From contig CP126121.1 of the NCBI GenBank assembly GCA_030123625.1, forward strand, positions 3,202,179-3,266,178: 64,000 nt of DNA, given 5' to 3'. A model generated the notes under the pieces. It was given only the letters and a program-made list of their open reading frames with translations. It was not told where the DNA came from and did not search any database. Source of the stretch: Nitrospira sp. GTDB lineage: Bacteria; Nitrospirota; Nitrospiria; Nitrospirales; Nitrospiraceae. The stretch's first letter is position 1. Each line of letters starts with the position of its first letter. This document shows, one piece after another, positions 11,119 through 25,726 of this stretch. The position numbers and the translations under genes are program-made.

Positions 11119-11919
11119 ATGATACCGATTTTTCAGCTGTTTCGTAGTCTCCATCGACATCAAGCCATGATTTTCGCTCTGGCGGTTCGAGAGTTGCAGA
11201 GCCGGTACGTGGGGACATTAGGCGGGATTCTATGGACGTTTGCGCATCCGCTTGCGGTGATCACGGTCTTCTATTTCGTATTTGCAGTCGGGTTCAGATC
11301 TCAGGGGCCGGACCGTACTCCGTTCCTGCTCTGGTTTGTGTGCGGATTGGTGCCGTGGTTCTTTTTCAATGAAACGCTGTCGGCCGCGACCGAGTCGATT
11401 ACCCGTCATACCCATTTGATCAAGAAGACGGTCTTTCCGTCCGAAATCCTTCCCGTGGTCAATATTACGGCCGGGCTGGTTCCGCATTCGATTTTTCTGC
11501 TTATAGTGACGGGATTGCTGGTCTGGTATCATGTGCCGTTTGCTGCGGGCCGATTGCTGGTCGTCTATTTCCTCCTCTGCACCTGTGTCTTACTCGTCGG
11601 TCTCAGTTGGTTACTCTCTGCGATCCAGGTGTTCTATCGCGATGTTTCACATGCACTGTCCATCGTGCTCAATTTGTGGTTTTGGACCACCCCCATCGTC
11701 TGGTCACCAGACATGATACCCCAAGGGTATCGCGGGTTGTTGTTCTTCAACCCGATGTATTACATCATCGAAGGGTATCGAGGTCTGCTGATCTACAACG
11801 AAATCATATGGCCAAGCGCACAGCACACGGTCTACTTCGGAGGCGCCGTCACGGTGATGTTTGCGGCAGGTGCCTATGTGTTCAGCCGGCTCAAGTCGGA
11901 ATTTGCCGACGTCATGTAA
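11119..11919 (+). CDS. wzm: ABC-2 type polysaccharide exporter, membrane subunit (Wzm-like)
   Basis: 266 residues, the normal size of Wzm/KpsM-type permeases, with six hydrophobic segments. Family landmarks include the N-terminal amphipathic start with LAVRELQSRYVGTLGGILW, VPWFFFNETLSAATESI, and the late LFFNPMYYIIEGYRGLLI. It forms the membrane channel that exports a finished undecaprenyl-PP-linked glycan in one piece. The ATPase gene begins 9 bases after its stop, so the two are one transporter. Confidence 0.9.
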   Translation: MIPIFQLFRSLHRHQAMIFALAVRELQSRYVGTLGGILWTFAHPLAVITVFYFVFAVGFRSQGPDRTPFLLWFVCGLVPWFFFNETLSAATESITRHTHLIKKTVFPSEILPVVNITAGLVPHSIFLLIVTGLLVWYHVPFAAGRLLVVYFLLCTCVLLVGLSWLLSAIQVFYRDVSHALSIVLNLWFWTTPIVWSPDMIPQGYRGLLFFNPMYYIIEGYRGLLIYNEIIWPSAQHTVYFGGAVTVMFAAGAYVFSRLKSEFADVM

Positions 11920-11928
11920 CAGACTCTC

Positions 11929-13275
11929 ATGTCCGCCGAAACAGTCATCGCCGTTCGGAATGTATCGAAGAAGTTCAGATTGTTCTCTTCGGCCAAAGAT
12001 CGCCTCATCGAGGCCTTGCATCCGTTCCGACGGCGATATCACCACGAATTTTGGGCTTTGCGAGACGTGTCATTCGATATCTATCGAGGCGAAGCCGTCG
12101 GCATCATGGGGCGAAATGGTTCCGGAAAGTCAACGCTTTTACAAGTCATTTGTTCCGTCATGCAGCCCACTGCGGGAGAAGTTCAGGTCAACGGTCGTAT
12201 TTCTGCACTTCTGGAGCTGGGTGCCGGATTCAACCCTGAATTTACCGGCCGGGACAACGTGCTGCTGAATGGAGCGATCTTAGGGTTCTCCCGCAAGGAT
12301 ATGCTCGACAGGCTGCCTGAAATAGAAACCTTCGCGGACATCGGTGAATTTTTCGATCAACCGATGAAGGTCTATTCTTCCGGGATGTTTGCGCGTGTCG
12401 CCTTTGCCAGTGCGATTCATGTCGATCCCGATGTGCTGATTGTTGATGAAATACTTGGAGTCGGGGACGCGAAATTCCAGGAAAAATGCTACAACAGGAT
12501 CCGTGCCTTGCGCGACAGAGGAGTCTGCATTCTTTTTGTCAGCCACAGCACCGAAGCCATCCAACGCAATTGCAACACGGCGCTGCTGCTCGACAGCGGC
12601 AAGATTGTTGCTCGTGATTCCGTAGACGCGGTTATAGCTGCCTATCACGACCTCCTGTATGGCTCTCGAAAAACAGCCAACCAAGAGCAGCCGGCATCTC
12701 AAGTTGTGGGTGTAAAAATTGCTCGGGATAACCGCTACGTTGAAGCGGCCTCAGAACTCACAAAATTTATAGAAAACACGGGAGACCCTCTCTGTCGCCA
12801 CTTTCCTTACTACAACTCTTACGAGCGCCGTCTTGGCAATAGCGAAGCCGAGATCATAGATTTTCTTGTAGTTGCCGACGATAAATTTCACTTTAATGTC
12901 TTGGAAGGGCACGAACAACTGACAGTGTATGTCAAGGTGAAATTCTACCGTAATGTCGAAGCGCCAAGGCTTGGCTGGGCAATCACCAGCCCGGAGGGGG
13001 TAACCATTGCTGGGTCAAACACAACAATGAAGAAAATCTCTCTACCGCCAACAAAAACTGGTGAATGCTGGGTATATGCCATTAGAATACTGCCAAGACT
13101 ATGCGGTGGTCAGTACTTCCTTAACCTTGGCATAGGAGAAGGCCGTAATGAGGAGCATGTATTCTTGGATGTCAGACGATCGATTATTCACCTTTCCATA
13201 GCTGATTCTGGGCGTTCAACAGGTTTTGTTGACATATCGGCGGATGTGGCTGTTATTTGCACCTTAGAAAGCTGA
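11929..13275 (+). CDS. wzt: ABC polysaccharide exporter ATPase with C-terminal carbohydrate-binding domain (Wzt-like)
   Basis: 448 residues. The ABC domain (about 1-245) has Walker A GRNGSGKST, the YSSGMFARVAFA signature region typical of Wzt in place of LSGGQ, and Walker B VLIVDEILGVGD. After a linker, residues ~290-440 form a beta-rich Wzt C-terminal domain, which in known systems recognises the terminal modification of the O-antigen before export. Such a domain implies that the exported chain carries a specific end group. Three sulfotransferase-like genes follow directly. The C-terminal half is more AT-rich than the ATPase half, so the binding domain may have been exchanged. The next gene starts two bases after the stop. 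Confidence 0.9.
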   Translation: MSAETVIAVRNVSKKFRLFSSAKDRLIEALHPFRRRYHHEFWALRDVSFDIYRGEAVGIMGRNGSGKSTLLQVICSVMQPTAGEVQVNGRISALLELGAGFNPEFTGRDNVLLNGAILGFSRKDMLDRLPEIETFADIGEFFDQPMKVYSSGMFARVAFASAIHVDPDVLIVDEILGVGDAKFQEKCYNRIRALRDRGVCILFVSHSTEAIQRNCNTALLLDSGKIVARDSVDAVIAAYHDLLYGSRKTANQEQPASQVVGVKIARDNRYVEAASELTKFIENTGDPLCRHFPYYNSYERRLGNSEAEIIDFLVVADDKFHFNVLEGHEQLTVYVKVKFYRNVEAPRLGWAITSPEGVTIAGSNTTMKKISLPPTKTGECWVYAIRILPRLCGGQYFLNLGIGEGRNEEHVFLDVRRSIIHLSIADSGRSTGFVDISADVAVICTLES

Positions 13276-13277
13276 TT

Positions 13278-14048
13278 ATGAATGTAGGATCTCAGCCATT
13301 ATTGAAGCATTTCGTTGTAACCGGTATCCCGAAAAGCGGAACACTTTATTTGGCAAGAAGTGTGTCGATGAACCTGAATTTGAACCCAACGTTTGAGTTC
13401 CGTATTGGATCTCGCGGGTTTACTAAGTCACAGGTTCAAGCTGATCGACTTGAGGAACTCATCAACGGATCAGCTAGAGTGCTGCAAGAGCACATAGCAC
13501 CTACGGAATATAATCTTTCTTTGCTTAAATTTTTCGGTCTGAACAGGTTTGTTCTTACATTGCGAGACCCTCGTGATGTTATCTGCTCACTCCGCTTTCA
13601 TCTTCATCGAGAGGACGTCAGAAAACCCTGGCACATATCGATGTCCCTGGCAAGCGGCTTAATTGATGAGTCTTTCTATGACCAACCGGTCAATGTTCAG
13701 TTTGATATTCTCATCGCAAAGGCCTTCCCTCGGCTGCAGTCGTGGACTGCCGCTTGGATTCGGTGGCTCGATGATCCGGAATTGGACATACACCTTGTTT
13801 GTTATGAATATTTTTCGAAGAATAATGAAGCGGCTGTGCGTGCCATCCTTCAGTTCTTTGGTAATGATTGCGGTTCCACTATTGTTCTTCCTCGTATTGA
13901 GCCCAGTATCAATGGAATTGATTTATCCACACATTTTAGGAAAGGACAACCCGGAAGCTTTAGAGAAGAGCTATCACCACAACAATTGCGACGTCTTGAA
14001 AAAATGATTGATCATAAATTGTATAAGCGGATGAGCTGGGAGGCCTGA
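13278..14048 (+). CDS. Sulfotransferase-like protein
   Basis: 256 residues from ATG 13278, two bases after the wzt stop. The 5'-phosphosulfate loop reads VTGIPKSGTLYLAR, with Lys19 as the expected PAPS-contacting residue. The 3'-phosphate region is FVLTLRDPRDVICSLR near residues 90-105. Both motifs are standard for PAPS-dependent sulfotransferases; the acceptor is unknown, but glycan sulfation or sulfolipid formation fits the locus. The DNA is AT-rich: bases 13261-13320 have 21 and bases 13501-13560 have 19 G+C of 60, against 33 of 60 at 42481-42540. This suggests recent acquisition. Confidence 0.75.
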   Translation: MNVGSQPLLKHFVVTGIPKSGTLYLARSVSMNLNLNPTFEFRIGSRGFTKSQVQADRLEELINGSARVLQEHIAPTEYNLSLLKFFGLNRFVLTLRDPRDVICSLRFHLHREDVRKPWHISMSLASGLIDESFYDQPVNVQFDILIAKAFPRLQSWTAAWIRWLDDPELDIHLVCYEYFSKNNEAAVRAILQFFGNDCGSTIVLPRIEPSINGIDLSTHFRKGQPGSFREELSPQQLRRLEKMIDHKLYKRMSWEA

Positions 14049-14108
14049 TGTTGGTATCTACGGTTCATTTATGGGCTGAGGTTCCAATACATCGGGCAAA
14101 CGGACCTT

Positions 14109-15683
14109 ATGGCCGAGCAGCGTATGCGAGAAGTGAGTATGCGTGAGAACCAATTTTTAGTCGTAGGTCCTCCCCGAGGAGGATTTACCCTCCTGCTCTC
14201 GGTATTGTCCATCCTTTATCGAGACCGTGGCTACGCCAAACCGCACGCTCAGGAAATTGCAGACCCCTACATCGCCATCGCTGGAGAATATCTAGATGCC
14301 GCCATAAGAGACTGGTTTTGTGGGCAGGTCGGGGAGGAGAGGCTTTTCTTCAACAAGGAATTTTCGATCCTCGTGGGCGGTCCGAAATGGGTTTCTGCCG
14401 ATGATGAAAATACCGTCTGTGTACGTAAGTACCTCGGCATTAAGGGCGCGGGTGATTTTACATTCCTCCTGTATCTGCCGCGATGGGTTCTGGCTTTCGA
14501 CGACATTATTCATTCGCACAGCCATCCGGCGCGATGGCTGACAATGTCCGACTATTCGGAATTCAAGAAATTTGCGTCGATCCGCAATCCGATCGATATC
14601 ATCCATTCCTCTGTTTTCTCCATCAATGCCCTGGCTAGTGAATACATCCAGCGCGAGCTGAGGCTGGACGAACACCTGATTCGACGCGAGCTGGCGCTGA
14701 ACAAACTCACCAACCCGGAGTTTATTTCCGGCCTGATCGTCTTTCTCAAGAAATACCTGGACGAATTCGTTTCTATCTCCGACCGATTCGATTATGTGAT
14801 GCGTTGGGAAGATTTGATTCAACACCCAAGCGAGGAAATTCAACGTATTGCCCTGGCAACCGGTGAACCCGCCAACGCGGAATACGCCGCCCGCGTTTGG
14901 AGCGAGTTGGATCATCGCAACCTGACCCGCTATCACAGGCATAGTTTTCGTCGTGGTTTATTGTACGATTGGCAGTTCAACATAACCAATACTCACCTCA
15001 AACTATTTGAGGAAGCCGGCTTTGGGGAATATCTGCAACGATTTGGCTACGATCCGATCGTTTATTTTAAAGAAAGTGACTATACCCCCGACCAACTGCT
15101 CATTGAGGAGCATATTCGTCGGGGACAACCGTATGTAGAGAATCTGGACGACGACTTGATAACCTTCGCATTCAACAAGACGAACTTCACTCCATCATCT
15201 CGCTTCAAATTCAAGCACTATCCTCGTCAAGGCGCGATCGAGATCGAGAGGTCCACTGTGCGAGATGAGGCCCTAGAAGCGGGATTCATGGCACGTATGG
15301 CGCCCGCCTCGGAAACTGTTTTCAGCTACCTTCAGGAGCTGCGGCAGGTTGCTGAGGGGGCGGCGGCAGGTAATGAGGCTCCGCTCGGGGATTTGAGGGA
15401 GCGCTACAGCAAGGTCTTTTCCGAATGGCTGGGCGATCGTGCTGAATCCATGTTTTCCGCATTATCGAGTCGGTCTGATACAACATCGGCTCCGCCTCGG
15501 CTTGTCGGGAGCGCTGCCGGATACAACATCGTGTATTTGGGGGGACACCATTATTCTGTTCCTCAATCGCTGGGTCCCATGGATTTGGGGCAGCTCGACA
15601 AGTCTACATTGCCATCGAAAATCATGGTCACGCGCACATATGAAGAAGCGCTTCAAGCTATCGCACGGAGGACCGAGGCGTGA
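14109..15683 (+). CDS. Sulfotransferase-like protein with C-terminal YNIV module
   Basis: 524 residues. A P-loop-like LVVGPPRGGFTLLLS (residues 17-31) replaces the usual PKSGTT loop, and the later FASIRNPIDIIHSSVF near residue 157 resembles the 3'-phosphate-binding element, so a sulfotransferase fold is likely although the catalytic lysine is not obvious. The middle part (about 310-460) is unassigned. Residues 465-520 (DNA 15501-15668) carry the short module shared with four neighbours: GYNIVYLGGHHYSVPQSLG then MDLGQLD. Starts at ATG 14124 or 14139 are also possible. The next gene begins on the GTG that overlaps this stop codon. Confidence 0.6.
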   Translation: MAEQRMREVSMRENQFLVVGPPRGGFTLLLSVLSILYRDRGYAKPHAQEIADPYIAIAGEYLDAAIRDWFCGQVGEERLFFNKEFSILVGGPKWVSADDENTVCVRKYLGIKGAGDFTFLLYLPRWVLAFDDIIHSHSHPARWLTMSDYSEFKKFASIRNPIDIIHSSVFSINALASEYIQRELRLDEHLIRRELALNKLTNPEFISGLIVFLKKYLDEFVSISDRFDYVMRWEDLIQHPSEEIQRIALATGEPANAEYAARVWSELDHRNLTRYHRHSFRRGLLYDWQFNITNTHLKLFEEAGFGEYLQRFGYDPIVYFKESDYTPDQLLIEEHIRRGQPYVENLDDDLITFAFNKTNFTPSSRFKFKHYPRQGAIEIERSTVRDEALEAGFMARMAPASETVFSYLQELRQVAEGAAAGNEAPLGDLRERYSKVFSEWLGDRAESMFSALSSRSDTTSAPPRLVGSAAGYNIVYLGGHHYSVPQSLGPMDLGQLDKSTLPSKIMVTRTYEEALQAIARRTEA

Positions 15684-17305
15684 ACCGCTATTTGGAGTTT
15701 TTCGAGCCTGACGCCCGTGTGGCAATTGAGAAATCGCTCGAACGGGCTTTCGAATTGGGCGCCCGAAAAGCCATGGTGATCGGGCCGAATCCGTGCGGTG
15801 TGGAATTGGCCAATATCCTTCGGAAAATCGGAATGTCATGGATTGAAAGGCAGTTGGTGGCATTCCGGAAGCCGGACATCGCCGATGCAGATCTTGTCCT
15901 TGTCACCGGCGGCAACGGCGCAGATGTTTCACGGGCGCTCCATGACTGCATCGACAGGAATATTGCGGTCATCGCTCCGATTACCGAACATCACTGCAGT
16001 AAACGCACGGTATTTCTACTGTCTATCCCGAAGGCCGGAACCCACATGGTCATCCGGCTTTTCGATCTGATGGGGTTGAGTCGATCGCCTGAACGAGCAC
16101 CAAAGCCCGGCACGTGGTCTACTCCGGTCGGCTATCACTATCACGCTCCCTGCAGAGATTTGATGCGCGGCGATTGGTGCGATCCCATGGGGCGTCAATT
16201 ACTGTTTCGATCGCCGGCGATTTTTGTTTATCGTAATCCGCTCGATATTATTGTGTCCGAGTTGGATTGGTTTGTGAGATCTGAGCACACATTCTCAGGG
16301 TATCTGAATTGCTGTGCGAACAGATCTGAACAATTGGAACGCTTGATCGCGGATGACACCGTCATGGGCAACATCCGCGATCGTATCAACGGGTATGTCG
16401 GATGGATGAGCTTCAATAACGTGATTCCGGTCAGTTACGAGGAACTCGTGGGAGAACGTGGTGGAGGAAGTGAGGCCGAGCAACTGGACACGATATGGGC
16501 GATGCAGCTGAAACTCCACCTTGGTGGAAGCCCTCATGAATACGGTTCTCGGCTTTACGACCCAACCAGCGCCACGTTCTCAAAAGGTCGGATCGGTCGT
16601 CACAGAGAGTGTTTTGAAGAGCGCCATTTCACACTTCTTAAGTCTCTGCCGCAGGATTTCATGCAAGCTCTTGGATACGCTGCCGGAGCGACAATTTCTT
16701 CGAGAATAAAGGAATTACGACAGCGCCCTCTGGTGGTAAAGGAGCTGTCTCCGAATGTTCTCTACACCCCACGATTGGTGCGGGAAAGCCTGATGGGCTC
16801 GAACATCGTGGAGATTGCGGGAAAGTATTTTCCAGTCCAGCAGGACATCCATCTCATGTCGGCTGAGGACGCCGAACGCTTCTCGAACGGACAGAAAGGA
16901 TTCATGGCCTTGCGCGATGCCGTGGATGCCGTAATCCATGGCGATGCAGCGACTGCTCTTGCACCGGCACGATCGGAATTTGTCGGCACAGAATTGGTCC
17001 ACGAAGGCTATTGCGGATTTAATATTGTTCGTCACCACGACAATTGGTATGGTTTCGATCAAGCATTGGGCCCGACTGATATCGGAGCCCTCGGAGATGC
17101 GGCGATACAAGATATGAAGCGGAAGGGGACATGTGTGTCCGGATCCAGCGCGACCGACGTCAAGATGGAAATCCTGCACTTGGCAATGGATCAGCTGGAC
17201 CAGCGGGTCACAGATGAGACGAATATTCTTTACCGCGCATTGCGTGTGGTATTTGGAAAATTAGGTTCTGGTAACGTGTTCGGACGGAAAGAGTTCAAGT
17301 CATGA
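15680..17305 (+). CDS. Sulfotransferase-like protein with N-terminal Rossmann-like domain and two YNIV modules
   Basis: 541 residues from a GTG that overlaps the previous TGA (GTGA), preceded by GGAGG. Residues ~1-105 look like a small nucleotide-binding or regulatory domain (KAMVIGPNPCGVELANIL, LVLVTGGNGADVSRAL). A sulfotransferase domain follows with LLSIPKAGTHMVIRL (Lys118) and IFVYRNPLDIIVSELDW near residue 184. The C-terminus has two copies of the shared module: residues 366-419 (DNA 16775-16936; MGSNIVEIAGKYFPVQ) and residues 439-499 (16994-17176; CGFNIVRHHDNWYGFDQALG). After these comes a 40-residue tail. The gene ends in an ATGA overlap with the next one. Confidence 0.65.
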   Translation: MNRYLEFFEPDARVAIEKSLERAFELGARKAMVIGPNPCGVELANILRKIGMSWIERQLVAFRKPDIADADLVLVTGGNGADVSRALHDCIDRNIAVIAPITEHHCSKRTVFLLSIPKAGTHMVIRLFDLMGLSRSPERAPKPGTWSTPVGYHYHAPCRDLMRGDWCDPMGRQLLFRSPAIFVYRNPLDIIVSELDWFVRSEHTFSGYLNCCANRSEQLERLIADDTVMGNIRDRINGYVGWMSFNNVIPVSYEELVGERGGGSEAEQLDTIWAMQLKLHLGGSPHEYGSRLYDPTSATFSKGRIGRHRECFEERHFTLLKSLPQDFMQALGYAAGATISSRIKELRQRPLVVKELSPNVLYTPRLVRESLMGSNIVEIAGKYFPVQQDIHLMSAEDAERFSNGQKGFMALRDAVDAVIHGDAATALAPARSEFVGTELVHEGYCGFNIVRHHDNWYGFDQALGPTDIGALGDAAIQDMKRKGTCVSGSSATDVKMEILHLAMDQLDQRVTDETNILYRALRVVFGKLGSGNVFGRKEFKS

Positions 17306-18579
17306 CCGTCTCTATTCACAAGAACGTCTCACCGCCTTCACCACGCCTTTCTTTCATCTTGTTGGATTGGGGCTGTCGCGAGCGGTTCACGACCCTGGAT
17401 TGGCTGCTGCAGCAAGATGTGTCGAAGGATCAGTATGAGCTGATCTGGGTGGAAGTTTATGACCGCGTCGTCGACGAAGTGATGAAGAAAGCAGATGTCG
17501 TCATTACCTGCAATCAACAGGGCATCTATCACAAACATGTTGGTTATAACGCCGGCTTGTTGCATGCGCGAGGGGACTTGATCTGTGTCTGCGACAGTGA
17601 CGCGATATTTCCACCTGACTTTGTGCGGTCGGTCTTTCGCTCATTTCAAATGGACGATGGTGGATCCGCCGTTCCGTTGGTGCTCATGCATTATGAATGG
17701 CGCACGTCGCTACTCTATCCAGACGGCTTGACCGACACCGAGACACTCAAGGATCGGGAGCGCTGGCAATGGTGGCCGCTCCTTGTCAACGAGGGCGCTT
17801 GCATGACCGTGCGCCGGGCTGACGCGATCCGATTTGGAGGATTTGACGAACATCCGAGTTATAAAGGATACCTCTGTGGGCCTTATGATTTGGGATGGCG
17901 TCTGATCAATGCCGGTTGGCCTGAAGTTTGGCACGATGAGTCTGTGGCGTTATGGCACTTCGCTCATCCCGATCCGATCGGCACGAATGGTCAGCGGGCT
18001 TCGCTGAAACAGCTGCTGGAAAAGGCCTATCCACATATCAACGGCCATGCGCTGACGGCCGTGGAAGCGTTTTCGACAGGACGATTTCAACCCCTGCAGG
18101 AAAATCCTGACATCTGGACCTTGCGAATGCGCGATCGGCGCATCGGATCCGAGCTTGAAACACGGTACGCCGATTTGACGGGCCAAGGCGGCTATTCATC
18201 TTGGATGGTATGGTCGTTATGGGGCTCACTGCTGAGAGAAATTATCTGGCGCTATTTTGAGGATCGCCTGTGGAAACCTATTCGCGAGGGTATTGCCGCC
18301 CTTATGGGACGACGAGTCGCGAGAGCGCTTCGATCTCTATACCAAGATCACATCGCCTCCCGTCGAATCAATCATCAAGTACCGGCGGATGCTCCTACCC
18401 TCCTGTGTTCTGTAAAGAGGTATAACCTCGTCAAATTCAAAGATGAGTACTACGCAGTCCCCGTGAGGATTGGTGAGCTTGATCTGTCGACGGATGAGGG
18501 AAGGGTTCACCCGGATCTGCTGGTTTCGGAAAACTACGAGAGACTTCTGGAGAAAGTCCACGCGGCATCTAGGGGTTAG
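17302..18579 (+). CDS. Family 2 glycosyltransferase with C-terminal YNIV module
   Basis: 425 residues, ATGA overlap with the preceding gene. GT-A features: SFILLDWGCRERFTTLDWLL, NAGLLHARGDLICVCDSDAI with a DSD metal motif near residue 98, and a WWPLLVNEGACMTVRRADA region with a Phe-Gly-Gly-Phe-Asp element (FGGFDE) typical of galactosyltransferase-like GT2 proteins. A helical linker is followed at residues 367-419 (DNA 18400-18558) by the shared module (KRYNLVKFKDEYYAVPVR then ELDLS). The module is after, not within, the catalytic domain, as in the neighbours. Confidence 0.75.
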   Translation: MTVSIHKNVSPPSPRLSFILLDWGCRERFTTLDWLLQQDVSKDQYELIWVEVYDRVVDEVMKKADVVITCNQQGIYHKHVGYNAGLLHARGDLICVCDSDAIFPPDFVRSVFRSFQMDDGGSAVPLVLMHYEWRTSLLYPDGLTDTETLKDRERWQWWPLLVNEGACMTVRRADAIRFGGFDEHPSYKGYLCGPYDLGWRLINAGWPEVWHDESVALWHFAHPDPIGTNGQRASLKQLLEKAYPHINGHALTAVEAFSTGRFQPLQENPDIWTLRMRDRRIGSELETRYADLTGQGGYSSWMVWSLWGSLLREIIWRYFEDRLWKPIREGIAALMGRRVARALRSLYQDHIASRRINHQVPADAPTLLCSVKRYNLVKFKDEYYAVPVRIGELDLSTDEGRVHPDLLVSENYERLLEKVHAASRG

Positions 18580-18612
18580 ACCAGGTTAGCTATCGATTCC
18601 GGAAAGCGCATA

Positions 18613-19071
18613 ATGGGAAATTCGAGGAATTATGATCTCTTTGTGACTCATGCCTGGCGTTTTCACGAGGATTGGACAAAATTTACAGACTTTATGGACA
18701 AGATACCGGGGATCCTATGGCGTAACTTCAGCCTCCCCTGGCACGATCCTGCCATAAGTCCGAATACGGAAGTCGGAGGCCGATTCATCCGCAGCTCTCT
18801 TGAAAGTCAGATCATCCCGGTTCATGTCGTTGTTCTGCTTGCAGGGGTATATGAGATTAGAAGCGCGCGACTGTGGGTGGACATGGAAGTCGAAATGGCG
18901 AAGAAGCACAATAAACCTATCATCGCGATGCCCGCCATCAACAAAGACTCGATACCGGACGAACTCGTTACGTTGTGCGACGCGAGCAGCGGATGGGACG
19001 CGGCACGATTGATCGCCACCATTGATGAAGTTCGGTCCCTCCCAAAATACATACCGCACTCGTCAGGATGA
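18613..19071 (+). CDS. TIR-like protein of the ThsB (Thoeris) type
   Basis: 152 residues, one compact domain. It starts with YDLFVTHAWRFHEDW, then ILWRNFSLPWHDPAI, IIPVHVVVLLAGVYEI, an acidic helix VDMEVEMAKKHNKPIIAM, and ends with SGWDAARLIATI. These pieces match, in order, the TIR-like fold of Thoeris ThsB (WRN-x-S-x-P, HVV-x-LAG-x-Y, E-x-x-x-A-x-x-x-x-KPII), with the presumed catalytic Glu in VDMEVEMA. Known ThsB proteins make a cyclic ADP-ribose-type signal for ThsA. No ThsA (SIR2 plus SLOG) is nearby, and the gene sits in a glycan operon, so its role here is unknown. Spacing from the preceding gene is 33 bases. Confidence 0.75.
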   Translation: MGNSRNYDLFVTHAWRFHEDWTKFTDFMDKIPGILWRNFSLPWHDPAISPNTEVGGRFIRSSLESQIIPVHVVVLLAGVYEIRSARLWVDMEVEMAKKHNKPIIAMPAINKDSIPDELVTLCDASSGWDAARLIATIDEVRSLPKYIPHSSG

Positions 19072-19283
19072 TGATTTTGGGAGACGGACACTATTCGCTG
19101 AAAGATGCAGGGATCGTGAAAGGCCGGAAAATTAATTGATACCGTACGTGGGCTCGTGTATTTTTATTAGTAGTTATTCGGTCGCCATCATTCCCACCGG
19201 ATGGAAGAAATCTCTCGAAGGCCGCATAACCGTGCAATGTCGATTTTCTCAAGCAGCGGGATGGGGAGAGCAAGGCCTGCAAA

Positions 19284-19342
19284 ACAGGAAGACCCGCTGG
19301 TAATCAATGGAAGACCCTTCCTGTAAAGCGGGGGTCTCTTTT
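19284..19342 (+). promoter_or_regulatory. Leader with two mutually exclusive hairpins (attenuator-like)
   Basis: ACAGGAAG (19284-19291) is perfectly complementary to CTTCCTGT (19317-19324). AGACCCGCT (19290-19298) can instead pair with AGCGGGGGTCT (19327-19337), which is followed by CTTTT (19338-19342). The two stems share bases, so only one can form; the second resembles an intrinsic terminator. The element ends 15 bases before the start of the 1157-residue radical SAM gene. No known riboswitch consensus (cobalamin, GEMM, SAM) was recognised in the 285-base leader (19072-19356). Confidence 0.4.
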
Positions 19343-19356
19343 GTCGTACGAGGTGA

Positions 19357-22300
19357 GTGATGACCGATACATCCGTTGTTTTGACTCTAGCGAAAGGCCG
19401 TACAACCGCCAAGGTGGAGGGGACACGCGTCACATTCAGTCCTCACCAATGCTTTGCTTTCGATAATGGGCCGGACGATGTGGCGTGTCTGCGGGCGCTC
19501 GGGGCGCATCTCATGATATTGCCCGGCCTTACGCTGGTTGGCTCGAAGAGGTTTGTCGACTATCTCTTGCAGCATGTGCCGGGTCTCAAGGCTCGGATCG
19601 TCGGCATTGCGCTTTATGAGAATATTCAGGATTCGAACCAGCTGCATGGCCTAGCCGGCATCCAGCTCGGAGCGTTACCCGGAGAAACGCAAACCGCTTT
19701 CCTCTGCGAAACGTTGACGTTTCCGCGCATGCAGATGATGAAGCAATTGCCTCGATCGATCGCTATCGTCGATCTCACGGTTTTGGCGGACATTGAGCCC
19801 GACGTCATCCCTGCCCGGGGCTGGACGCCGTTACCGCGCAATATTTATCCGATCGAAATCCCGGAGATCCAGGTCAGGAAGGATCTGGATGTCGCCATTG
19901 TCGATTGTCCTTCCCGTAACTTGTCCTTGATGCCGAATGGATTGGGATACTTGAACAATGCCCTAAAAAAGACGGCGGTGTCCTTTCAGATCGTCGATCT
20001 CGATATTATTTCTTATCATCGGTTTCATGTTCATCGGCTCTTCGATATGGGCGGTCGTATCACGCTTCCCGGTGATTTGGTGTTGCCGGAGGATCCTTGG
20101 CAAGCGGAGCACTACGATCTGTGGACAGCAACGGGTGGAGGGGTATCCGGTCCAACCGGGCGCAACGAAGTATTGGAGTTCTTCAGACCCGTCATTGACG
20201 AGACAATCGCGGCTGTGGTCGCAGCACGGCCAAAAGTGCTCGGGCTTTCGATCCAAGGATGTAATGAGGCGGCGGCGCGGGAGGTTGTGCTCGGCGTCAA
20301 GGCTCAGTTGCCTGACATTACAATCGTGGTGGGCGGATTCAGTTGCTACAATGCGGATGTCGGCCGCCGTGCATTCCCGGAATGCGACTACATGTGCATC
20401 GGCGAAGCAGACCTCACGGCTGGTCCGCTGTTAGAGGCATTGGTCCGGGGCGAACGGCCGTTCAACCAGCCTGGTGTACTGTCCCGCTTCGATACGCCCG
20501 GTTACTCTTACATTCCGGCGCCCATGATTCATAACCTCGATCAGATCGAATTCCCCAAGTACGAGTGGTGCGATCTAAGCGTGTACAGAAATTTCAATGA
20601 TTATCAACTGACGCCTATCATCGCAAGCCGGGGGTGCCGGTGGTCGCGCTGTACTTTCTGTGCCGAACGGTTCTACTGGCGCATTCGCACAAAGGAAAAT
20701 TTCGTGGATGAACTGGAGTGGTTGGTTGGGCGGGGCTGTCATCTGTACATGTTCAACGAGAGCGATCTTGGCGGCATGCCCGAGCGAGTCATGGAGATTT
20801 GCGATGAGATCATACGCCGTGGTCTTCATCGCAAGGTGAAGCTCACCGGCCAGCTGCGCGTCAACAAGAAACAAAACCGAGCCTTCTTCGAAAAGCTGAG
20901 AGAGGCCAATTTCGTTGCGCTGCGTTTTGGAATCGACGCTTTTTCCGAGCGCACGTTGCGACTGCAGATGAAGGGGTACACGGTTGACATGATTACGCAG
21001 AACCTAAGGGACTGCTGGGAGGTCGGAATCTTTACCGAAGTCAATTGGGTCATCGGTGTTCCAGGAGAAACCGACCAGGATGTTGAGGAGGGAATCGAGC
21101 TCATTCTCAAGAACCGCAAATATATCGGTCGGCTGGCCAACATCAACCCCCTGATATTGGTGAACGGCAGTGTCTATTGGATCGACCCGGCCTCTCACAA
21201 CATTGTATTAAAGGAACCTCAGGAAATAATGTACGAGAAGTATCCGAGAGCTCTTCCCGCAGACCAGTGGTACAGCACTGATCCGTATATCGACGCGCAG
21301 GTACGTAAAGAGCGATTTGAGCGTATCGTCCTTGCTCTCTACGATGCGGGTTTTAACGTAGGAGCCTGGGCCAACCGTGTTATTGAGGATGTCAAATTCA
21401 ATCGCGATAAGGCTCGTACCGGTTCCGCAAATGGTGCCGTCAGTGCAGGAGAATTCGAAGTCGCCGGCGGGAAAGACTCGGGGAAAATGCCGAGCCTTAC
21501 GGAAGAGGAACGGGCGCTTGAAATCGCGAGTCAGCGTTCGCCGCTTGCTGAGGAAAGCCCGGTGCGTACAATAAAGGCACTTCCCATGTATCCTGATGCC
21601 GAATCCTCGAATGCCGGCCGGCCGCTGGCGGAACCTCCGTTATTCGGAATTGCGGGCGAATCGCCGCGTATGGTCCGCAAAATGGATACGCATACGATCC
21701 TTTTCTACAACGGTTGGTACTACGGTATTCCCGCCGCATTCAGCAGTATCGATGTGACAAGTCCTGAATCAGCCGCGATCGCGGGAGTTCTCCGGTATCC
21801 AACCGAAGAGGAAGTCATGGCGGCTATAGAAGAGAGTGCCCGATGGGCGAACTCGCGCGGCCATTACGATGATCAAAAGAAGCAGCGAGCGTCTGGATCT
21901 TACATGCGGGCGGATAGCGTCGGCGAAATGTCCGAATCAGCCGAGCTTCCCAACAAGCCTCGCATTCTGCAATTCGGCAAGACGCATATCGCCGTGGATC
22001 GGGAAGTTTTAAAGAATCCGTTCGGACGGAGATCAGTTCTTGAAAGAAAATCCGAGAGTCAAGTAGAGAACAAGCGCAATGTCAGTGTCTGGCGCCGGCT
22101 GGCCGAGCTGTTGCCTGCATCATGTGAAGAGGAGCTTCGGCGTCTTATCCGCCAGGAACGTTTTAACAGAGGAAATGGAGGCTACTTGAGCGATCTGCAA
22201 CTCGTCCGTATGCTGCCGCATGCGATAGTCGTTGCGTATGTCAAAGAGCCGCTGAAGCGTATCATGCGCGTTGCGACAGGGCGTGGCGGCGGTCACGACA

Positions 22301-22830
22301 CGCCGGCCGGAGTGCCGGTGAAAGGAGAAGAATTCTCTATCCTGTCCGTCGTGACCAAGGACGCTCAACCGGAATTATTATGGACCATCGGTAATTACAA
22401 CCTCGTGAAATTCGACGGCATGTTCTACGGGGTTCCTCATGGGGCCTATGTGGAATGGGGATCCGGTTTAGTCGCATCGGTTCCCGGCATGCTGGTTGGA
22501 GAGACCATCGCTGAAGTCGACGGCATGATCAAGAAACTGCGAGGAGAAGCCGGGGAAATCCCCGTCGCTCGAACGGACGATCGCTCCCACGCATCTGGAT
22601 TTACGAAATCGCCTGTTGTACTTCGTACCATGCCGGAGGAAGGCTATGATGTCATCTCTTATGAAGGGTGGATCTATGGTATGCCGCATGCTTTAGGTGC
22701 TATTGATCTGACCGAGATCGACGTCATTGAGATGCCGGGTGTCATTCGCGATGTATCACGTGATGCGGTCGAAAATGAAATCCTTGCGTTAGGCCGCAAC
22801 AACAAGTCCTGCAGCGTTGTCGAAGTATGA
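19357..22830 (+). CDS. Giant B12-binding radical SAM protein with three C-terminal YNIV modules
   Basis: 1157 residues if read from GTG 19357; ATG 19360 is the more likely start. Residues ~180-380 hold a cobalamin-binding-like domain (VAIVDCPSRNLSLMPNGLGY, VLGLSIQGCNEAAAREVVLG, IVVGGFSCYNADVGR). The radical SAM cluster motif is SRGCRWSRCTFC with Cys427, Cys432 and Cys435, so C-x4-C-x2-C instead of the canonical C-x3-C-x2-C. Then LRFGIDAFSERTL and NWVIGVPGETDQD complete the barrel to about residue 680. A charged low-similarity stretch follows, then three shared modules: 772-824 (DNA 21670-21828), 1007-1058 (22375-22530) and 1088-1142 (22618-22782). The first ~170 residues are unassigned. The stop overlaps the next start (ATGA). 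Confidence 0.8.
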   Translation: MMTDTSVVLTLAKGRTTAKVEGTRVTFSPHQCFAFDNGPDDVACLRALGAHLMILPGLTLVGSKRFVDYLLQHVPGLKARIVGIALYENIQDSNQLHGLAGIQLGALPGETQTAFLCETLTFPRMQMMKQLPRSIAIVDLTVLADIEPDVIPARGWTPLPRNIYPIEIPEIQVRKDLDVAIVDCPSRNLSLMPNGLGYLNNALKKTAVSFQIVDLDIISYHRFHVHRLFDMGGRITLPGDLVLPEDPWQAEHYDLWTATGGGVSGPTGRNEVLEFFRPVIDETIAAVVAARPKVLGLSIQGCNEAAAREVVLGVKAQLPDITIVVGGFSCYNADVGRRAFPECDYMCIGEADLTAGPLLEALVRGERPFNQPGVLSRFDTPGYSYIPAPMIHNLDQIEFPKYEWCDLSVYRNFNDYQLTPIIASRGCRWSRCTFCAERFYWRIRTKENFVDELEWLVGRGCHLYMFNESDLGGMPERVMEICDEIIRRGLHRKVKLTGQLRVNKKQNRAFFEKLREANFVALRFGIDAFSERTLRLQMKGYTVDMITQNLRDCWEVGIFTEVNWVIGVPGETDQDVEEGIELILKNRKYIGRLANINPLILVNGSVYWIDPASHNIVLKEPQEIMYEKYPRALPADQWYSTDPYIDAQVRKERFERIVLALYDAGFNVGAWANRVIEDVKFNRDKARTGSANGAVSAGEFEVAGGKDSGKMPSLTEEERALEIASQRSPLAEESPVRTIKALPMYPDAESSNAGRPLAEPPLFGIAGESPRMVRKMDTHTILFYNGWYYGIPAAFSSIDVTSPESAAIAGVLRYPTEEEVMAAIEESARWANSRGHYDDQKKQRASGSYMRADSVGEMSESAELPNKPRILQFGKTHIAVDREVLKNPFGRRSVLERKSESQVENKRNVSVWRRLAELLPASCEEELRRLIRQERFNRGNGGYLSDLQLVRMLPHAIVVAYVKEPLKRIMRVATGRGGGHDTPAGVPVKGEEFSILSVVTKDAQPELLWTIGNYNLVKFDGMFYGVPHGAYVEWGSGLVASVPGMLVGETIAEVDGMIKKLRGEAGEIPVARTDDRSHASGFTKSPVVLRTMPEEGYDVISYEGWIYGMPHALGAIDLTEIDVIEMPGVIRDVSRDAVENEILALGRNNKSCSVVEV

Positions 22831-23699
22831 GGTTCTTTCAGAAATGTGTTTCCACTCCCGGTATCATACAGAATGTTCACCCCGCTTCCTGGCGGGATCA
22901 TCGTTTCGGTTTACCGCAAGCCAGGTGGGAACGGCTGAAGGGAAGGAATTTTTGGATAACTGGCGCAGGCACCGGCTATGGACGATGCATTGCGTTGGCC
23001 CTTGCCGCCGCAGGCGCTCGAGTCTTTATTTCCGGAAGACGAATTGAGAAATTACGCGAGACTGTGGATGAGGGCGCGGCTCTTGGCATCGATGTCAGCC
23101 GTTGTATCTCCGTCCCGGTGGATATTAGATCGGACGAGGATCTTGCCCGTGCGGTTGGAAGCATCCAACATGTGACCACCAGCCTGTATGGATTGGTGAA
23201 CAGCGCCGCCCTCCCTCAACCTGCAGGAACAGCGTTTCCGCTCACCGGTCAAAGTGCGGCTGCTTGGACGGATCTTCTGACGACAAACGTGACAGGTCAA
23301 TGGTTGACCTGCAAGGCGGCCATGCCGCTCTTAAGCCATGGCGATGGGTTTCGGATTCTCTTCCTTTCCTCCTTCGCGGGTTGGGCATCGACACCGGGAT
23401 TCGGTCCGTACAACATCAGCAAATCGGCCCTGAATACGCTTGGTGCATCTTTCGCCGCCGAATGTGCCATGAAATATTCGGATAAGGATGTTCAGATCAA
23501 CGTGTTGGTGCCCGGTGAAGCCCGTACCGAAATGAATCAGGGATCGACGGAAAGTCCGTATTCGGTGGTCAGTATGGTACTGGTTCTGCTGTCACACCCA
23601 CCGGGTGGCCCTAACGGGTATTTTTTCAATCGCGATGGGCGTCACCTCGCATTTGCCTATACTGAGGAATATCCTCGATCACTTTTGGCCGTACACTAA
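22827..23699 (+). CDS. Short-chain dehydrogenase/reductase
   Basis: 290 residues, ATGA overlap with the radical SAM gene. Classical SDR signals are present: NAD(P) loop ITGAGTGYGRCIALAL (about 44-59), VNSAALP in place of NNAG, the catalytic Ser in LFLSSFAGW, and Tyr-x3-Lys in YNISK, followed by VLVPGEARTEMN. The first ~35 residues are extra compared with the usual ~250-residue family. Such a reductase could act on a keto-sugar or lipid-linked precursor, but the substrate is unknown. Its stop shares a base with the next start (TAATG). Confidence 0.8.
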   Translation: MRFFQKCVSTPGIIQNVHPASWRDHRFGLPQARWERLKGRNFWITGAGTGYGRCIALALAAAGARVFISGRRIEKLRETVDEGAALGIDVSRCISVPVDIRSDEDLARAVGSIQHVTTSLYGLVNSAALPQPAGTAFPLTGQSAAAWTDLLTTNVTGQWLTCKAAMPLLSHGDGFRILFLSSFAGWASTPGFGPYNISKSALNTLGASFAAECAMKYSDKDVQINVLVPGEARTEMNQGSTESPYSVVSMVLVLLSHPPGGPNGYFFNRDGRHLAFAYTEEYPRSLLAVH

Positions 23700-25726
23700 T
23701 GCGTCACCCCCCTTTACGTGTCGCGATTCCTTGGAGCCTTAGCCACTACATTCCGTTAGACGGGTTTCATCCGCTCTATCGGGCATTGTTCGATCATGCT
23801 CCGGAAGATGTCCAGCTTTCCGCTTGGGATAACGTCAAGTTGTATCGCAAGTTCAGGAATGAGGTTTCTGTGCGGAGGGAAGTGGTAGAGCAATCAGAAC
23901 GGGAAGGACAACGCCTCGACCGAATGGATGGGAGCTCTGTTGCCAAAAAGTATCAGAAGTATTTTTGGCCTCCTGATCGTATTCTGACGACCGCGCTCGG
24001 CGGAGATCTTGAATTTCATCATACCGCCCCATTTCCTTCGCTCAGGCGCCCGTTTGTCTTTCACTGCGAGTCGTTCGCGCCGATCTTGTTCCCGTTCGCT
24101 CAGCAAGGCAGCGGCAATGTTGAAAACTATGAGGCACTCAAGGATCATTATAGAAGTATTTTTGCACATCCTCTGTGCCTCGGAATCTTTTCCCATGTGC
24201 CGGACACGCTTCATGCCCTTAGCGCGTTCTTGTCAGACCCGACCGTCGACGGGAAGTTGTTTCCCTCAAGAACGGGATTAAGTGCCGAAACATTCTCCGC
24301 TCACGAACCGCAGCTAAAGTCGTCGCTTTCCAGACCATGGTTTTTGTTCATCAACTCTGCCAACCAAAATCCTATGAGTTTCTTTCACAGAGGCGGGCAC
24401 CTCGTCCTACGTTTCTGGAAGGAGATGGTTGCTTGTGGTCGAGACGGCCTTCTGATGCTTCGTTGCGCAATGCCGTGTGATATCGAGTTGCGTGAACATG
24501 GTGTTGATGTATCCTGGGTCAAAAGTGAGCTCGGTCGAAGTATCGTCTGGGATCAAAGCTATCTGGCCGGTCATGAAATACAATCCTTAATGGCCGGCTC
24601 ACATTTTTTTCTGCTTCCCAGCATGGCTCTGCACTCAGTCTCGATCATGGAGGCCATGAGGGCGGGAGCGATTCCCGTTGTGTCCGACACGGTGGGTGTT
24701 TCGGTATACGTTTCCGATAGGGAAAATGGGATTGTCTTGCGCGGTGTGCGGAAGAAGGTCTGGCCTGAAGGCGGTGGAACGGATGGTTTGTTGGGGCGAT
24801 ATGGCCGATGGCCGGAGCTCGATGATTATCTTGTCGAGCAAATGACAAATCGTGTGTGTGCGTTGCTGGACGAGCCTCGCGCCTATTGGGACATGCATAG
24901 GCATACGCTTTCCCATGCAAAGGAACGATTTTCAGGGCAGAGCTTTGCCTTCGACTTCTGGAGCACTGTGTCGGATCTTTATGCGCGATGCAGACCAGTA
25001 TCCGTTACGGGAGAGGGCGGTTCCGATCGGCTGGACCGTTCCTTGAACGAGTGTACGATCCAGCGTGGAGACTGGGCGAGGATATTTGAGAGTCCCCCAC
25101 AGCCGATGTTACGAATTAAGACAGAGTACGGCAGGGTATGGGAATTGGGTGGCGCCATGATCCAGACATACGGAAATCCTCGCATCGAGCTGAACGACTG
25201 GTCCGTATTGGCTCCATACTATAAAGCCGGTGCGCCGGCTGGGATTTATGCCAATACCTTGGAAGAACTTGAAGGAACATACCTTCATCCGCCCGGAGAG
25301 CGTCGCGAAGGAGTGCGGCGCAAGTTAGTTCGGTGGGTTTCAAAAACTCTGAGGCCATTTCCCGCCTTGTATCACTATGCCGCTCAGGTTCTAGCGGTTT
25401 ATCGTCGGCATGGAGGGTTCAGGTTCACCAGGCCCAGGGTAGAACCTGAGATCGAACTCATACGTCAGGGAGTAACCGGGTATAACATTATCCGTCATCG
25501 TGATCGATACTATGCCATTCTTCAACGAGAAGGGGAATTTTCTCCGGAGAAGGCTGAGGCCGGTGGTTATTCATCCTGTTTTCTGGGGCACTCTGTTGAC
25601 GAGGTGCTCCAAGGCATCGCCGCTAGTATTCCGGCATCGAAATCGTTCGCCTGCGAAGAAGACGCTGAGCCTGCCCAAAATTCTGAGCGCACTCGCTGCC
25701 AAGTCGGCTTGGCTCCAAGACTGTGA
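23699..25726 (+). CDS. GT-B glycosyltransferase with C-terminal YNIV module
   Basis: 675 residues. The first ~440 look like a GT-B transferase: LRVAIPWSLSHYIPLDGFHP at the start, a FHCESF element, then FFLLPSMALHSVSIMEAMRAG with the donor-binding Glu and AIPVVSDTVG. The exostosin/GT4-like C-terminal half is recognisable; a precise family is not. Residues ~475-540 form a separate small domain (GRVWELGGAMIQTYGNPRI, then IYANTLEELEGTYL). After a basic helical linker the shared module lies at 587-640 (DNA 25457-25618; GYNIIRHRDRYYAIL). The following gene is in the same reading frame, separated only by this TGA. Confidence 0.7.
   Translation: MRHPPLRVAIPWSLSHYIPLDGFHPLYRALFDHAPEDVQLSAWDNVKLYRKFRNEVSVRREVVEQSEREGQRLDRMDGSSVAKKYQKYFWPPDRILTTALGGDLEFHHTAPFPSLRRPFVFHCESFAPILFPFAQQGSGNVENYEALKDHYRSIFAHPLCLGIFSHVPDTLHALSAFLSDPTVDGKLFPSRTGLSAETFSAHEPQLKSSLSRPWFLFINSANQNPMSFFHRGGHLVLRFWKEMVACGRDGLLMLRCAMPCDIELREHGVDVSWVKSELGRSIVWDQSYLAGHEIQSLMAGSHFFLLPSMALHSVSIMEAMRAGAIPVVSDTVGVSVYVSDRENGIVLRGVRKKVWPEGGGTDGLLGRYGRWPELDDYLVEQMTNRVCALLDEPRAYWDMHRHTLSHAKERFSGQSFAFDFWSTVSDLYARCRPVSVTGEGGSDRLDRSLNECTIQRGDWARIFESPPQPMLRIKTEYGRVWELGGAMIQTYGNPRIELNDWSVLAPYYKAGAPAGIYANTLEELEGTYLHPPGERREGVRRKLVRWVSKTLRPFPALYHYAAQVLAVYRRHGGFRFTRPRVEPEIELIRQGVTGYNIIRHRDRYYAILQREGEFSPEKAEAGGYSSCFLGHSVDEVLQGIAASIPASKSFACEEDAEPAQNSERTRCQVGLAPRL

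Follow-up and report, generated by a model that had tools for sequence, protein, structure and literature searches.

A small unnamed module on the enzymes of bacterial glycan clusters, putatively a recruitment unit for nascent polysaccharide chains

Background

In O-antigen pathways that depend on ATP-binding cassette (ABC) exporters, enzyme complexes and scaffold proteins are known (PMC11231755), and the exporter ATPase Wzt reads the polymer through a carbohydrate-binding domain, Wzt_C (PF14524), which binds polymer ends and is able to work in trans (PMC9445017). The principle of an accessory recruitment module is not new in itself. Here we describe a module of ~55 residues, eight copies of which are spread over five carrier genes of a single cluster in Nitrospira sp., within a 64-kb stretch of its genome (GenBank assembly GCA_030123625.1, contig CP126121.1, positions 3,202,179 to 3,266,178; hereafter the window). 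All of these segments represent a single, autonomously folding module, and we propose, with a probability of roughly 0.45, that it keeps cytoplasmic enzymes and the exporter on one nascent chain, most likely by binding the glycan. The module family is unnamed in Pfam, NCBIfam, PHROGs and PDB, and its spread over an entire cytoplasmic pathway is unusual.

Several described systems resemble it in part. Like the module, carbohydrate-binding modules (CBMs) are small independent units that occur in tandem on poorly conserved linkers, at either end of a protein or between its domains, and on many enzymes acting on one polymer. Unlike CBMs, the module matches no CBM family of Pfam, its carriers are biosynthetic and, by family, cytoplasmic, and its glycan binding is putative. 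Wzt_C serves the same pathway, and two Wzt proteins hold the module beside it; in contrast, Wzt_C is a jelly-roll dimer of ~140 residues, whereas the module is predicted to be a beta-meander with a helix and is also present on enzymes. Polymerase-terminator complexes of the WbdD/WbdA type couple the extension of ABC-exported O-antigens to their modification and export, which is the role that we propose for the module, but WbdD relies on a ruler formed by a coiled coil and on a recruitment site of its own (PMC11231755), not on one module carried by every enzyme. The cohesin-dockerin pair of the cellulosome likewise places one small tag on many unrelated enzymes of one polymer; it is, however, extracellular and calcium-binding and has a dedicated scaffold, whereas the module has neither a dockerin match nor a common scaffold gene in the fetched stretches around its clusters.

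Results

All eight segments are translated in frame, as the sequence-only reading of the window had described. On the forward strand (+), copy 1 (15501..15668) lies at the end of sulfotransferase-like protein 1 (ST1), copies 2 (16775..16936) and 3 (16994..17176) in sulfotransferase-like protein 2 (ST2), copy 4 (18400..18558) at the end of a family 2 glycosyltransferase (GT2), copies 5 (21670..21828), 6 (22375..22530) and 7 (22618..22782) in a B12-binding radical SAM protein, with copy 7 at its end, and copy 8 (25457..25618) at the end of a GT-B/GT4-type protein. When a profile of seven segments was scored against the omitted eighth, seven of the eight copies were recovered at 10.4-27.0 bits (27.0 for copy 1, 15.7 for copy 3, 21.2 for copy 4, 17.1 for copy 5, 10.4 for copy 6, the weakest accepted, 19.2 for copy 7 and 16.8 for copy 8), while the best matches among 20 shuffled sets of the window's open reading frames reached 7.6-9.7 bits and the top non-module match in the window at most 4.2 bits. 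A profile of 47 modules from outside Nitrospirota found the same seven at 16.8-47.2 bits (38.4, 32.5, 31.1, 16.8, 28.9, 39.4 and 47.2 bits for copies 1, 3, 4, 5, 6, 7 and 8, respectively; best shuffle 7.9 bits). Profiles built without the copy in question or without its genus thus recruit seven of the eight, and copy 2 only marginally. Because held-out and outside-phylum profiles recover seven copies above the shuffled controls, their similarity is beyond chance. An accidental likeness or an artefact of composition might be suspected from the shortness and divergence of the copies, which share 18-30 % identity with copy 1 in a MAFFT alignment, but it is refuted by both kinds of profile, by the shuffled controls and by the confident predicted fold, and we regard its probability as negligible. 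Searched with the profile, the entire 4.69-Mb Nitrospira genome returned eight matches, all inside a single 10-kb cluster and none elsewhere.

The remaining segment, copy 2, is a decayed copy. Plain leave-one-out fails for it (-0.5 bits); a larger profile lacking copy 2 and its orthologues gives 8.6 bits, a score exceeded by 2 of 3,000 shuffled segments. It lies 73 residues upstream of copy 3, and in an AlphaFold model of this pair it forms a three-stranded meander as in the module, at moderate confidence (predicted local distance difference test, pLDDT, ~77). A ninth copy, also decayed, is probable at ~21904..22008 (+) in the radical SAM protein, in the stretch that separates copies 5 and 6. 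There, an hhalign comparison of the orthologue and module alignments gave a probability of 93 % and an E-value of 3e-7 over 25 columns only. Hidden extra copies in the linkers of ST1, GT2 and the GT-B protein found no support.

The eight segments share the pattern GYNIV-x3-G-x-YYG-V-PQ-x2-G-x2-D and a closing EV-x3-I. Over 129 modules (effective number ~75), the ~53 conserved positions yield the consensus LVESYKGYNIVRYEGKYYGIPQSLGPVDLTKAESRAYPGVLVGESIEEVKAAI, in which N7 (88 %), Y/F6 (aromatic in 90 %), an aromatic residue at position 16, P19 (70 %), G23 (87 %) and D26 (63 %) stand out and R/K is frequent at positions 10 and 14. The second strand is most conserved at an aromatic residue, N, I/L/V and V/I, and the third reads aromatic-aromatic-[AG]-[IVL]-P; after this motif come LG-x2-D and, near the helix, S/T-x-E-E-V. 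AlphaFold modelled copy 1, aligned with 44 relatives, at a pLDDT of 92.8 and a predicted TM score (pTM) of 0.79, with strands at residues 2-7, 10-15 and 18-23, a short strand at 44-46 and a helix at 49-59, so that the module can be predicted with confidence to be a three-stranded meander, complemented by a fourth, short strand and by a helix at the C-terminus. Copy 3 reached a pLDDT mostly >90, and the modelled copies, whose alignments used shared rows, have one core fold. Tandem copies are usually spaced 55-105 residues apart. In the model of copies 2 and 3, the pTM is 0.54 and the placement of one copy relative to the other has low confidence, in keeping with beads on a string, although the weak copy 2 lowers the pTM too.

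The sequence-only reading knew of no named family for the module, and the searches of Pfam, NCBIfam, PHROGs and PDB revealed none. Queried with 45 members, Pfam, NCBIfam and PHROGs gave no convincing match, the isolated weak matches to DUF6618, DUF6996 and phrog_15540 being judged chance, and the module profile matched no PDB sequence. The CBM families held in Pfam, which lacks some of those in CAZy, were matched by none of the 45 members at E-values up to 10. The Pfam dockerin was not matched either, and the module is predicted to fold as a beta-meander plus a helix; in the two Wzt carriers (L118 and L161), PF14524 matches another part of the protein than the module. At E <= 0.001, Foldseek returned no structure from PDB or from viruses, and Foldseek and VIA gave weak matches only. 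The best VIA score was a Z of 3.9 to the methane monooxygenase regulator MmoD (6d7k_D; 45 residues, 2.2 Å), which is not a CBM, and 3.4 for the tandem model; we rejected MmoD as a structural relative, as a Z of 3.9 is within the range of common arrangements. A similar arrangement is seen in small phage proteins (TM 0.62), which may have only the simple fold in common with the module. What the modules do share with CBMs, judged by the predicted fold, is that they form discrete folded units within glycan enzymes, GT2 and GT4 among them. A description of the module was not found in the open-access literature.

Orthologue comparisons show purifying selection on the module, with dN well under dS in every copy. 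In the GT-B protein, copy 8 is 62-87 % identical between orthologues vs 56-76 % for the catalytic part, and the module is the more conserved of the two in all seven orthologues compared; copy 7 of the radical SAM protein (91-95 %) is on par with its catalytic part (90-92 %) within Nitrospira. Linkers are usually less conserved than modules. Furthermore, every intact window copy resembles most the one that occupies the equivalent position in the enzyme's orthologue from another phylum, by which the window copies are old and not recent duplicates.

Carriers recognized by Pfam comprise GT2 and GT4 glycosyltransferases, sulfotransferases, several families of S-adenosylmethionine (SAM) methyltransferases, B12-binding and SPASM radical SAM proteins and Acyl_transf_3. 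In addition, Wzt itself is a carrier in Nitrospirota (L118) and Omnitrophota (L161), with the module between the ABC ATPase domain and Wzt_C. Copies number one to eight per protein and vary in number between orthologues. Large fused glycan enzymes of 1222-1711 aa combine GT2 and methyltransferase domains (L158 3464-8596 (+), which also contains a B12-radical SAM domain; L142 4124-8095 (-); L048 7130-10795 (+)), and their modules sit between the catalytic domains. Carriers devoid of any Pfam match (L112 5140-8277 (+), L140 12726-15932 (-), L117 5302-7893 (-), L163 2302-4326 (-) and L148 7900-8958 (-)) are candidate undescribed glycan enzymes; those of L112, L140 and L117 have no PDB sequence match either. 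In a Pseudanabaena locus (L103 7280-7640 (-)), an in-frame TAA in a linker parts the radical SAM enzyme from its four-module half; we did not count this as a free-standing module protein, as the genome is metagenome-assembled and the TAA, although it may mark a truly split gene, may also be an assembly error or a nonsense mutation.

Two generalizations drawn from the window hold there but not for the family. All window copies are C-terminal to the catalytic parts, as had been claimed, and most modules elsewhere occupy the final fifth of the protein, but N-terminal (L107, L111, L115) and internal placements (Wzt and the fused enzymes) also occur. Likewise, the divergence that was taken to exclude simple recent duplication does reflect old copies in the window, whereas other genomes contain clear, near-identical recent tandem copies (L065/L113, L102, L141). 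Among them, a 1254-aa sulfotransferase-like protein of Methylobacter (L102 6151-9912 (+)) has eight copies, at least six of them near-identical, and is the product of recent in-frame amplification. A structural spacer or solubility domain with no specific ligand would be in keeping with the frequent position between catalytic domains and with the freely varying length and number. It is nevertheless improbable, given the strong conservation at N7, Y/F6, aromatic 16, P19, G23 and D26, a module that is better conserved than the catalytic domain in the GT-B protein, and the restriction to glycan clusters.

The module family is rare and patchy. Matches were found in Nitrospirota, Methylomonadaceae and other Pseudomonadota, a 'deltaproteobacterial' metagenome-assembled genome, Planctomycetota, a cyanobacterium and Omnitrophota. 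Positive genomes amounted to 19 of 79 in the genus Nitrospira, 6 of 201 in the family that includes Methylobacter tundripaludum and 3 of 398 in its phylum, 2 of 199 in Planctomycetota and 5 of 193 in the phylum to which the Omnitrophica genome belongs; in the cyanobacterial and 'deltaproteobacterial' samples, the starting genome alone was positive in each. Further loci were found by a degenerate DNA pattern (G[YF]N-x-[VI]...[YF][YF][AG]-x-P), which hit 15 loci in genome contigs, one of them (L068) a chance match that lacks the module, and none in viral contigs. Searches of plasmids and phages returned no match. Where present, the module is usually multi-copy and tightly clustered: all seven copies of one genome (G905) lie inside 9.8 kb of a 5.06-Mb contig, and all six of another (G981) inside 5.3 kb of a 4.8-Mb contig. 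Several genomes (G016, G629, G204) have a single detected copy only.

The module clusters are polysaccharide loci, most of them with a Wzm/Wzt exporter. As far as tested, the module is confined to such glycan clusters, where most kinds of pathway enzyme, and occasionally the exporter, carry it; the check proposed in the sequence-only reading, whether matches concentrate in polysaccharide loci and on different enzyme families, thus came out positive, also in other phyla. For comparison, 24 other clusters were used, each at least 12 kb long: Wzt occurred in 15 and Wzm in 14, above every other gene of the window, and five further clusters (L158-L162) had both in 5/5. No gene was common to all 24 in the fetched stretches examined, which argues against a universal protein partner; what the carriers share is a pathway, not a protein partner. 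A Methylomonadaceae locus (L139, on a 5.06-Mb contig) has Wzt, ST1, ST2, GT2, TIR-like, radical SAM and SDR genes in nearly the order of window positions 11929-23699, at 40 % identity for Wzt and 58-78 % for the other genes. From this near-identical gene order, whole clusters probably moved between phyla.

In the Nitrospira cluster itself, whose exporter, carrier and TIR-like genes are encoded on the forward strand (+), three genes that lack the module lie ahead of the carriers: Wzm, the ABC-2 permease of the glycan exporter (11119..11919; PF01061, 66.5 bits), Wzt with its ABC ATPase and Wzt_C domains (11929..13275; PF00005, PF14524), and a plain sulfotransferase (13257-14048) that is absent from all 24 other clusters of at least 12 kb. 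The first carrier, ST1 (14109..15683), matches PF00685 at an E-value of 9e-4 and 19.1 bits, below the 22-bit cut-off, and has an orthologue of 76-80 % identity in Methylomonadaceae; ST2 (15680..17305) reaches 22.7 bits with the same model. They are followed by the GT2 carrier (17302..18579; PF00535, 30.6 bits, cut-off 23.3), a small TIR-like protein of the ThsB/DUF1863 type with no module (18613..19071; PF08937, 22.2 bits, cut-off 21.2), the 1157-aa B12-binding radical SAM carrier (19357..22830; PF04055, 52.6 bits; PF02310, 31.5 bits, just under the cut-off of 32.1) and the GT4/GT-B glycosyltransferase-like carrier (23699..25726; PF13692, E-value 6e-5, 23.7 bits, below the 27-bit cut-off). The NCBIfam models nearest to the radical SAM carrier are B12-radical SAM C-methyltransferases, all far below cut-off. 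There are thus five carriers, as first described, but not five folds: two are both sulfotransferases, which leaves four fold classes.

The TIR-like gene and an SDR gene are interspersed among the carrier genes. In Nitrospira and Methylomonadaceae, as well as in a cyanobacterium and a planctomycete, the TIR-like protein (MTH538-like) adjoins the B12-radical SAM carrier; its gene occurs in 9 of the 24 comparison clusters, every time with radical SAM; relatives are encoded at L103 5524-5976 (-), L110 9989-10774 (-), L139 11722-12201 (-) and L140 10350-10829 (-). PADLOC models of candidate defence proteins matched weakly here, PDC-M51A on the radical SAM protein (19357-22830; E-value 7e-6) and PDC-M50B on the TIR-like homologue of L103 (5524-5976; E-value 0.003). 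Certain candidate defence models may describe glycan-pathway proteins instead.

Discussion

The sequence-only reading had interpreted the module as an unnamed targeting, scaffolding or glycan-binding tag of glycan enzymes, and the comparative data support this interpretation. The outcomes that it had named as refuting, a profile unable to recruit the other copies or dissimilar predicted folds, were checked for and did not arise. We infer that it acts in the cytoplasm. Glycosyltransferases, sulfotransferases, methyltransferases, B12-radical SAM enzymes and an acyltransferase would there extend or decorate a lipid-linked chain, each of them, and in two phyla the exporter ATPase, bearing at least one module on a poorly conserved linker. 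The module would bind the nascent glycan or its primer weakly, while copy number and avidity would keep enzymes and exporter on a single chain, in pathways that would mostly export via Wzm/Wzt. The glycan or its primer is preferred as the putative ligand because a pathway, rather than a protein partner, unites the carriers, because tandem use at any position on poorly conserved linkers resembles CBMs, and because the module is sometimes borne by Wzt, whose carbohydrate-binding domain already reads the polymer.

Several observations weigh against this proposal. Wzt was not seen in 9 of the 24 clusters, counting the fetched stretch only, and neither Foldseek nor VIA returned a structural relative of known function. 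The likeness between copies at the same position of orthologous enzymes suggests position-specific roles or simply vertical descent. Moreover, modules within a cluster are no more alike than modules from different clusters (permutation p 0.42), which is mildly against a cluster-specific glycan ligand, as a module tuned to the glycan of its own cluster might be expected to show such likeness; any glycan ligand would therefore need to be a common element, such as the primer or a common sugar.

The same lack of cluster-specific adaptation is what a general protein interface would predict, and the main rival is homotypic or shared-partner docking, in which a multi-enzyme complex would form around the exporter through binding of modules to one another or to a shared scaffold, leaving the glycan untouched. 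The spread over unrelated enzymes of a single pathway resembles that of docking tags, the eight-copy Methylobacter protein could serve as a hub, and scaffolded complexes do exist in ABC-dependent O-antigen pathways (PMC11231755). On the other hand, no non-module protein occurs in all clusters within the fetched stretches, so that a separate scaffold would have to be encoded elsewhere, and the genomes with a single copy are not explained by homotypic docking alone. We consider docking possible, if somewhat doubtful.

Another reading is an association with the membrane or with the lipid carrier undecaprenyl-phosphate, which would place soluble enzymes at the inner leaflet. Such a general ligand fits the lack of cluster-specific adaptation, and the conserved aromatic residues together with the frequent R/K at positions 10 and 14 could bind the interface. 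Yet the module has no conserved amphipathic or hydrophobic helix, and it is also found on an acyltransferase (L139 5854-7296), which we take from its family to be a membrane protein and which would not need anchoring. Such an association therefore seems unlikely, and we favour recruitment to the nascent glycan or its primer.

Conclusions

Only for a few O-antigens is it known how enzymes are retained on one chain and how the product is handed over to the exporter, and the solution differs from one to the next. One module on nearly all enzyme types, and sometimes on the exporter, would be a general answer to this problem and a marker for finding such pathways. More tentatively, the module might constitute a general assembly code for cytoplasmic glycan factories, in which homotypic or shared-ligand contacts would join enzymes and Wzm/Wzt into one machine whose composition would evolve by gain, loss and duplication of modules, and whose clusters would move between phyla as a unit. 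The module may serve as a signature for annotating unusual glycan enzymes and, possibly, as a part for building glycan assembly lines.

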